In this document: piece after piece, positions 35,806 to 41,272 of the stretch | Numbering within the stretch: the first letter of the stretch is position 1 | How the letters are laid out: each line of letters opens with the position of its first letter | Assembly: GCA_022826945.1 (NCBI GenBank) | Contig: JAJDTY010000073.1 | Location: 186,001 to 250,000, forward strand | From: Candidatus Binatia bacterium | GTDB taxonomy: Bacteria; Desulfobacterota; Binatia; Bin18 | Direction: 5' to 3' | Length of the DNA: 64,000 nucleotides | The notes under the pieces: model-generated | The model's database searches: none | The model's input: only the letters and a program-made list of their open reading frames with translations | Told to the model about the DNA's origin: nothing | Translations under genes and position numbers: made by a program

Positions 35806-36225
35806 TCATCTCCTGAACGGGTTTGTGATAACTATTCTTTCAATATGCTGACCATGCTGGAGGTCTTCGCTGTAGAGGGTTTTGCAGCCTGCGTCGAGCG
35901 CGGCGGCAATGATCAGGCTGTCGTAAAAGCTGAATTGATAGCGGGTTTGTAGATCGAGGCCGCGCTGGTACAGCGTCCGGGTCGGGTTGACGCGCCACAG
36001 AGGGATCAAGGCATAATCCAACATCTGTCGAGCTTTCTCTGGCGTTGCCTTGAGTTTTCGAGTGATGACGTTCATCGTCTCCTGAACGACCTGATAACTG
36101 ATGCAACCGGTTTCGTTTTCTAGCGCCTGTTGAACGAGTTGCTCTGCTCTGGCTCGTTTATCAGCATCGGTTTCGTCAAATCAGGAAACGAAGATATTGG
36201 TGTCGAGGAAGTTTTCAACGCTCAT
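35806..36225 (-). pseudogene. VapC-like PIN toxin with an in-frame stop
   Basis: Read from ATG 36225 the frame gives SVENFLDTNIFVS, then TGA, then FDETDADKRARAEQL and a complete rest of the PIN domain (VVQETMNVITRKL, DSLIIAAALDAGCKTLYSEDL). FLDTNIF carries the first catalytic Asp and DSLIIAAA/YSEDL the others. The stop falls where the family usually has a Ser or Tyr, so a single base change probably inactivated the gene. The upstream antitoxin overlaps the start by 11 bases and is intact. Confidence 0.7.
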
Positions 36226-36430
36226 TCATTTCGTCCCGAGTGAACTTTCGTCCTCTGGTGAATATGCTGCCTTGCAGTTCTCGAATGACTTTCATGGCTT
36301 CGGCAGCCTGCTGTTCGCGCCCGACATAGTGGCTGAGCCATACCCGAAACTGCTCGTTTACGGTCGTACGCTCTGCCATCGCGCGTCGGCGCGCCGCTTC
36401 AATCAGGTTCTCGTCTGCCCTGGTGTACAC
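36215..36430 (-). CDS. VapB-like antitoxin (ribbon-helix-helix type)
   Basis: A 71-residue protein: an N-terminal ADENLIEAARRRAMAERTTVNEQFRVWL segment that fits a ribbon-helix-helix DNA-binding unit, then a polar C-terminus (GSIFTRGRKFTRDEMNER) of the type that wraps the toxin. It overlaps the start of the broken toxin gene by 11 bases, the standard vapBC order. With the toxin disrupted it may persist as a solitary repressor. Confidence 0.7.
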   Translation of the reverse strand: MYTRADENLIEAARRRAMAERTTVNEQFRVWLSHYVGREQQAAEAMKVIRELQGSIFTRGRKFTRDEMNER

Positions 36431-36553: not shown

Positions 36554-36790
36554 CTAGGCGGCTTGCTTCTCCAGGGCGGATTGGATTTCCCTATTGTCGG
36601 GAAAGACGCCGGTTTCGAGTTTGGAGTAAATCTTCGTCCCGTTGACAACGACCTCAAACCGCCCGTCGTCATACGGGACCAGCGTCAGACCGTGAACCCG
36701 TTGTTTATTGCTGGTCAATATATATTCCGCCAAACTGACGGCTTCCGGCTCATAGCTTCACGCCGCGCAATACTCAATCCGAATATCCAT
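36554..36790 (-). CDS. Predicted SelW/Rdx-type selenoprotein (CxxU)
   Basis: A 78-residue Rdx-family protein read through an in-frame TGA (36758-36760). The N-terminus MDIRIEYCAA is followed by UGA at codon 11, then SYEPEAVSLAEYILTSN, LTLVPYDDGRFEVVVNG and IYSKLETGVFPDN, which match the SelT/SelW/SelH thioredoxin-like fold. This gives the redox motif C8-A-A-U11. A Cys version (CTQC) of the same family lies at 40991. A GGGGG ribosome site precedes the ATG. Sequence continuity across the UGA is direct evidence; selenocysteine use is inferred, as no selA-D gene or clear SECIS hairpin is seen here. Confidence 0.75.
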
Positions 36791-36937
36791 ACTGCCCCCT
36801 GCCCGCGATCTGTACCACACTCGGGAAGTGGGCTCAACGAAGCGCGCGTTGCGAAACAGGCTGACTTTGCTTTCTTGACCTGTGTGGTCTATGCTCCGGC
36901 CAAAGAAGCATAAATTCCCTTTGTTGAGGAGAGGATT

Positions 36938-38245
36938 ATGAATTGGCGTGATCACTGCGGTGATAAACTGGTCTCTGCTCAAGAGGCGGTCCGGTGTGTA
37001 CGGAATGGTGACTCCGTACAGTTCAACTGGCTGCACGCAACCCCGCTCTCGCTATGCGAGGCGCTTCTCGGGCGCAAAGAAGAACTGCGTGATGTGAAAA
37101 TTGGCACCATCGGTCCGCTCTTTGATTGGGACCAGCCCGGCGCGGACCAAGCCTTCACCATTCAGACTCCCTACCTGGGGACGACCACCCGTCCGCTCAT
37201 GGGAAAAAAGAATATGGATTTCATCCCGGTGATGTATTACCGCCGGGGTGAACTCCCCCCAGGCATCGTCTGCGACGTGTATATGACCCCGGTTTCCGCG
37301 CCCGACAAGCACGGCTACTGCAGTTTCGGACACAGCTTGTTCATGTCCAAAACGATGGCCGCTGCGGCTCGGACAGTCGTGGCCGAGGTCCAGGAAGACT
37401 TTATCCGCACCGGCGGAGAGAATTATATTCATGTGTCTGAGATCGACTATTTGGTAGAACCCACGCGGCCCGCGGCCGAACTCCCGGCCACGCAACGCAG
37501 CGAAGAAGAAACCGCTATGACCGAGGTTATCTGCACCCTGGTTGCCAACGAACTCATTCACGATGGCGATACCATCCAAATCGGTTTGGGCAGCGTTTCC
37601 TCCCCGCTCGGCATGTATTTAGGCAATAAGAACGACCTGGGTATTCACACCGAGGTGATTCCCGCTGGTATTGCCCGCCTGGTCAAGGAGGGCGTTATTA
37701 CCGGAAAGTACAAGACGGTGAACCCCGGCAAGGTCGTTGCCAGCGCCGGGATCGGGGTGTTCCCGGATGAGCTGTCGATCATCGACGGAAACCCGAAGTT
37801 CGAGTTTTACGACTTCACCTATACGGATGATTTACGCTTGCTGGTCAATCAGGAGCACTATGTTGCCGTCAATAACGCCCTCGCCGTGGACCTGGGCGGA
37901 CAGGCCTGCTCCGAGTCGTTCGGTCCGTTTATGTATACCGGAACGGGTGGCCAGACCATTTTTACGATCACTGCGGCCTACTGTAACCCGGGCCGGTCGG
38001 TGATTGTCACGCCGTCGAGCGCCGTGGTGGGCGGCCGCCGGGTCTCGCGGATCGTCCCCATGCTTGAGCCTGGCAGTGTAGTGACCGCGCAGCGGACCTT
38101 TGTTGACTCTGTGGTCACCGAGTTCGGGATTGCCGAACTCAAGGGGAAGTCTCTCAAGCAGCGTGCGGCCGCCCTCCTGGAGGTTGCCCATCCTGATTTC
38201 CAGCCGGACCTCAGACGGGAAGCCGAGCGTATTTATCACATATAG
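36938..38245 (+). CDS. CoA-transferase (4-hydroxybutyrate/acetyl-CoA hydrolase family)
   Basis: A 435-residue acetyl-CoA hydrolase/transferase family protein. HTEV at residues 237-240 carries the probable catalytic Glu239, and [13 protein letters not shown] precedes it. The C-terminal domain holds the [16 protein letters not shown] and [16 protein letters not shown] blocks. It probably exchanges CoA between short-chain acids and acetyl-CoA. ATG 36938 has a GAGGAGAGG ribosome site. It is divergent from the selenoprotein gene and lies 23 bases before the YyaL-like gene. Confidence 0.9.
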
Positions 38246-40990: not shown

Positions 40991-41272
40991 ATGCCTCAGC
41001 AGCCGCGTGTCGAGATCGTCTATTGTACGCAGTGTCGCTGGCTCTTGCGGGCAGGCTGGATGGCGCAAGAACTGCTCTCCACTTTTCCAGATGAACTCGG
41101 CGAGGTCGCGTTGATTCCGGGTGGAAGCGGCGTTTTTGAAATACGGCTGAACGATGAACTGATCTGGTCACGCCATGAACAGGGTGGCTTTCCTGAAATC
41201 AAAGTCCTCAAACAGTCCATACGAGAGAAAGTCGCCCCGCACAGGAGCCTGGGCCACATTGATCGCTCATGA
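40991..41272 (+). CDS. SelT/SelW/SelH (Rdx) family protein, CxxC form
   Basis: A 93-residue thioredoxin-like Rdx protein: RVEIVYCTQCRWLLRAGWMA gives the redox CTQC (Cys12, Cys15), and GGSGVFEIRLNDELIW and GGFPEIKVLKQ complete the pattern. It is the cysteine homologue of the predicted selenoprotein at 36554. The ATG at 40991 is chosen because it starts the family; it lies 10 bases after the DUF1499 stop. It probably works in redox maintenance; substrates are unknown. Confidence 0.88.
   Translation: MPQQPRVEIVYCTQCRWLLRAGWMAQELLSTFPDELGEVALIPGGSGVFEIRLNDELIWSRHEQGGFPEIKVLKQSIREKVAPHRSLGHIDRS

Follow-up and report, generated by a model that had tools for sequence, protein, structure and literature searches.

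The window analysed here (the whole stretch of 64,000 nucleotides, positions 186,001 to 250,000 of contig JAJDTY010000073.1 from a Candidatus Binatia bacterium) carries a short minus-strand gene with an in-frame UGA, a hairpin downstream of this codon, and two plus-strand genes, one a divergent neighbour and the other a distant paralogue. The features are as follows:

36554..36790, minus: SelW-like selenoprotein gene, predicted to encode 78 residues including selenocysteine (Sec) at position 11, with an ATG start and a TAG stop
36758..36760, minus: in-frame UGA, predicted to be read as selenocysteine (TGA in 63/64 loci, TGC in one)
36727..36741, minus: predicted bacterial SECIS hairpin CCGUCA-GUU-UGGCGG (codon-preserving null, covariation and sliding control)
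36795..36800, minus: AGGGGG as a Shine-Dalgarno-like sequence, ending 4 nt ahead of the ATG; most close relatives have GGAGG
36938..38245, plus: acetyl-CoA hydrolase/transferase family gene, the divergent neighbour, adjacent to the SelW gene in all of the Binatia-clade loci examined
40991..41272, plus: Cys-type Rdx paralogue (YCTQC; Rdx E 2.1e-33), of a distant subfamily and with no SECIS-like hairpin

The gene, MDIRIEYCAA-UGA-SYEPEAVSLAEYILTSNKQRVHGLTLVPYDDGRFEVVVNGTKIYSKLETGVFPDNREIQSALEKQAA-TAG as read on the minus strand (36790-36554), consists of 10 codons, the TGA, 67 further codons and the TAG. The UGA takes the second active-site position of a C-x-x-U motif (EYCAA-UGA, C8-A-A-U11), and on read-through the predicted product is a near full-length Rdx (SelW-family) domain (Pfam PF10262, E 5e-18, 65.5 bits vs the cut-off of 22.6, profile positions 2-72 of 74). 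With an ordinary ORF caller the gene falls apart into two unrelated-looking pieces, a 59-aa ORF with a TTG start (36554-36733) and a 92-aa ORF with a GTG start (36758-37036), the latter terminating at the UGA. No consensus sigma-70 promoter was found upstream of the gene. A first-pass annotation had placed the gene exactly at these coordinates, leaving out the strand; it had described MDIRIEYCAA, the TGA and 67 in-frame codons that continue the Rdx fold, which the domain match bears out, had assigned the UGA to the second active-site residue (C-A-A-U), in agreement with its alignment to the CxxC of the Cys forms, and had expected standard gene calling to miss the gene, as the two fragments illustrate.

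In a set of 58 genomes (the window's own genome and relatives) a version of the gene with one TGA is present in 14 of the 16 same-family genomes, in all 14 at the same codon, and in six more genomes of the class (the locus L039 was inspected). The UGA gene occurs in 20 of the 44 genomes with selA and in none of the 14 without selA over the cut-off (Fisher p 0.001, phylogeny being ignored); one of the latter (G022) has only a Cys-type Rdx. A second collection, of named genomes and overlapping with the first, yielded 64 loci with a homologue, which span Binatota, Verrucomicrobiota, Planctomycetota, Poribacteria, Bacillaceae and one actinobacterium. The equivalent of codon 11 is TGA in 63 of these and TGC in one (L073), the latter being a relative with Cys at the UGA position such as the first-pass annotation had suggested looking for. 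Frameshifts or stops elsewhere in the frame of the relatives, which it had named as contrary evidence, have their counterpart in a plain result: the aligned part contains no further internal stop in any of the 64 loci. As judged from these alignments, the conservation of frame and UGA over several phyla is far beyond chance. The dN/dS after the UGA (NG86) ranges over ~0.14-0.33 for six congeners and ~0.23-0.27 for three relatives further removed, and purifying selection is seen from these estimates to act downstream of the UGA. Since independent assemblies agree, assembly error as the source of the UGA is very unlikely.

The window's own genome (4.71 Mb in 86 contigs, with a completeness of 90% and a contamination of 5.2%) encodes SelA (E 2.4e-181 in a profile search), a tRNA-Sec that adjoins selA (70.7 bits; anticodon tca by ARAGORN), a full-length SelB (E 5.5e-115, with 579 of the 581 profile positions covered) and SelD (E 4.5e-92). 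The selD gene is on the contig of the window, ~2.5 kb to the left of it. The absence of Sec machinery, the other ground on which the first-pass annotation might have been refuted, is not what was found. SelD has the Cys form of the active site and makes up the C-terminal portion of a 760-aa protein (L015 262-2544, contig C17); the N-terminal half of this protein, as read from the sequence, looks like an FAD/NAD-dependent oxidoreductase.

Folded from the UGA onward, the transcript is predicted to form a hairpin with a 6-bp stem and a GUU loop that begins 16 nt after the UGA; the loop (36733-36735) opens with a conserved G, separated from the UGA by 22 nt. Whether the hairpin is a by-product of the peptide was tested against a null in which synonymous codons are redrawn at their local usage. 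The 55 sequences have a mean hairpin energy of -8.15 kcal/mol vs -4.23 under the null (sd of the mean 0.27), and 5.87 of the 7 tested stem pairs are formed vs 4.32 expected (sd 0.11). The window's hairpin alone is modestly unusual (13% of codon resamplings are equally stable), hence the strength of the signal derives from the comparison, in which the sequences are related and non-independent. In a sliding test the main signal falls in the segments that start 15, 18 and 21 nt after the UGA start (z about -13, -13 and -5), with a lesser dip at 27 nt (z -4) and little further on. Among 22 distinct sequences 95.5% of the cells are paired vs 20-46% when slid, and in four of the six stem pairs both partners have changed. 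The covariation score reaches 0.506, as compared with 0.226 after shuffling and no more than 0.159 after sliding. All 55 sequences have G as the first loop base, and the loop serine codon is AGT in all of the 51 cases, while the hairpin is absent from the Cys homologue L073 and from the Cys paralogues tested. The first-pass annotation had advised a search for a bacterial SECIS just after the UGA, and we conclude from the codon-preserving null, the covariation and the sliding control that the predicted hairpin is this element. When folding began 3 nt upstream of the UGA, the best structure was another one and of no significance. An Rfam scan of the window returned no matches, and a terminator-like match at 36741-36727 was set aside, since it consists of the SECIS and the AT-rich stretch behind it.

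The hairpin sits within the coding sequence of a conserved peptide (A-V-S-L-A/T-E) and might be conceived as its by-product, with the UGA decoded by another route; the codon-preserving null rejects this, and the peptides AVS, AAS, AVG and ASS, although different, retain the same stem by compensatory changes, so that we assign this explanation a very small probability. Equally improbable is a UGA that is reassigned or generally leaky (Trp, Gly or Cys) with no involvement of selenium. Trp-type or near-cognate readthrough would likewise keep the frame open, but UGA ends 17 of the 49 long non-overlapping ORFs in the window, the genome has the complete Sec machinery and the gene a SECIS, and the sole alternative codon seen is the one for Cys. 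The two fragments found by the ORF caller are also what would be expected of a pseudogene, in which the UGA is a true stop that arose by nonsense mutation and the remainder a relic. Such a decay is refuted by the conservation of the UGA, which stands at the catalytic CxxU site in loci of at least five phyla with no further internal stops, and selection persists downstream of it; the probability that we would grant a pseudogene is negligible. The locus is almost certainly a functional SelW-like (Rdx family) selenoprotein gene in which UGA would specify selenocysteine. This is how the first-pass annotation had read it, as a SelW-like selenoprotein hidden by an in-frame UGA, and the Sec machinery, the SECIS, the conserved UGA and the Cys relative uphold that reading.

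The AlphaFold2 model (20 aligned window and locus proteins) has a pLDDT of 94.3 and superposes, with TM values of 0.91-0.95 (by query length), on the ten best SelW-family crystal chains. Foldseek places 23 structures of the SelW/Rdx family at the top of its PDB matches, mouse SelW and MIEN1 among them, and thioredoxins follow weakly. The predicted structure is a thioredoxin-like Rdx fold that matches the SelW-family crystal structures. Mouse selenoprotein W (PDB code: 2npb) has the same fold (TM 0.71 by query length) and likewise a CxxU motif, however, it is distant in sequence (phmmer E 0.18), and the eukaryotic SECIS is located in the 3' UTR in contrast to the hairpin inside the coding sequence here. 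The fold is also common to MIEN1 (PDB code: 2ljk; TM 0.79 by query length) and to the Cys-type bacterial Rdx proteins (PDB codes: 2fa8, 2p0g, 2obk and 3dex), which have CxxC instead of CxxU and no Sec. From these computational results (gene, UGA conservation, SECIS, Sec machinery and fold) we infer both the insertion of Sec and the redox chemistry. We propose that SelB with Sec-tRNA(Sec) would bind the hairpin just downstream of the UGA, and that the ribosome would insert selenocysteine at codon 11; the 78-residue product would combine a thioredoxin-like fold with a C-x-x-U redox motif. Fold and motif together suggest that the chemistry is likely a selenol-thiol exchange, in which Cys and Sec would probably form a reversible selenenylsulfide during thiol-disulfide exchange.

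The Cys homologue that the first-pass annotation had pointed out at 40991 is a genuine Rdx protein and its Cys aligns to the UGA position, but it is an anciently diverged paralogue and not a direct Cys counterpart of the Sec protein. The two proteins share 26% identity, and the tree places the paralogue on a separate branch of Cys-type proteins (support 100/100). One congener has the paralogue at the matching place, and none was detected there in five others.

The gene belongs to the bacterial SelW-like CxxU selenoproteins, which have been known since 2005. They were the most abundant selenoprotein family in the Sargasso Sea (PMC1088965), were represented by ten sequences from sequenced bacteria in 2006 (PMC1794560), proved to be the largest selenoprotein family in the GOS data (PMC2398784) and appear under PF10262 in recent reviews (PMC9312934, PMC13188914). 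With these SELENOW-like proteins the gene of the window has in common the Pfam family, the domain and the C-x-x-U motif, as well as a SECIS that directly follows the UGA and carries a G in its small apical loop. The host phylum, Candidatus Binatota, is not named in either of the two reviews, and a literature search for Binatota together with selenoprotein or selenocysteine, which covered few subscription papers, found no report of a Binatota selenoproteome. The present case is a real gene split by ordinary ORF calling in this little-studied phylum, and the catalogue of redox enzymes of the lineage is probably wrong in many places owing to unread UGA codons.

While the gene of the window is paired divergently with the CoA-transferase gene, the intergenic stretch between the two being partly conserved in the Binatia clade, the SelW-like genes of Bacillaceae sit among sel genes. 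In 25/25 Bacillaceae loci (L059, L063-L072, L074-L078, L080, L081, L085, L086, L092, L093, L100, L101 and L103) and in three Verrucomicrobiota loci (L055, L062 and L106) the SelW-like gene is within ~5 kb of selA and/or selD, which suggests that it travels with the Sec machinery in Bacillaceae and some Verrucomicrobiota. In several of these loci selB is also nearby. In Cytobacillus spongiae the gene lies between selD and selA, at a place where the gene table of the plasmid, self-described as incomplete, is empty. Between the SelW gene and a luciferase-like gene of the window there is a PIN-domain-like ORF (35806-36430, minus), a weak match below the Pfam cut-off, which is found at the same place in L048 and not in L044, L045, L046 and L049; a small ORF upstream of it may be its antitoxin.

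In the window's own genome one in-frame TGA each was found in 8 of the 18 CMD/AhpD-like matches and in 5 of the 10 AhpC/TSA matches. These make at least 13 further candidate genes in the genome, as follows:

Eight AhpD/CMD-like UGA genes (L109-L116), UGA at the CxxU site: C20:15875, C71:15525, C54:137363, C7:205, C16:2405, C34:15690, C83:170858, C43:14153
Five AhpC/TSA-family UGA genes (L117-L121), TDGU/TPGU or UPYC/UPFC motifs, then a G-loop hairpin: C67:43370, C46:22434, C17:337586, C83:255625, C64:13963

The TGA of these 13 genes stands in C-x-x-U, T-x-x-U, T-x-U-like (TDGU, TPGU) or U-x-x-C motifs. In all of them the UGA is followed at 16-23 nt by a candidate hairpin that has G among its first two loop bases, as picked by a finder that takes the best of many placements; in each of the AhpD/CMD-like genes the G-loop hairpin is 17-20 nt downstream. 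Congeners likewise carry TGA-containing CMD genes, which disfavours contamination as their source. Together with SelW, the candidates number 13-14 (1 SelW-like, 8 AhpD/CMD-like and 5 AhpC/TSA-like), the lower count applying if the near-identical AhpD-like copies on C7 and C16 are, as they may be, one gene assembled twice. As six selenoprotein genes are the threshold for a selenoprotein-rich organism (PMC5029168), the genome would count as such. It is quite probable, on the strength of these candidates, that the Candidatus Binatia family to which the genome belongs is an unreported selenoprotein-rich lineage, with SelW possibly part of an expanded selenium-based defence that acts on peroxides and thiols.

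Two DsbA-family matches with one in-frame TGA each (C1:21101-21541 and C48:38798-39376) were left out of the candidate count. In the case of L122, an NADH/formate dehydrogenase-like match, the nearby TGA has the look of an ordinary terminator; the better FdhA matches of the genome are all free of TGA. A codon-bias scan of the window for further UGA-interrupted genes, which requires a coding-looking upstream part and is escaped by a very early UGA such as that of the SelW-like gene, gave ordinary adjacent genes and one antisense artefact only.

Two Virgibacillus loci (L101 and L103, 5001-5201) retain the UGA but have Arg instead of the first Cys of CxxU (FRMQ-UGA-NY). Two MAG contigs, L050 and L062, are titled Klebsiella pneumoniae and Akkermansia muciniphila, and their SelW genes resemble those of Binatota and Verrucomicrobiota, respectively. 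Since L050 groups with Binatota in the tree and L062 resembles Verrucomicrobiota loci outside Akkermansia, the names of these records are probably wrong or the bins contaminated.
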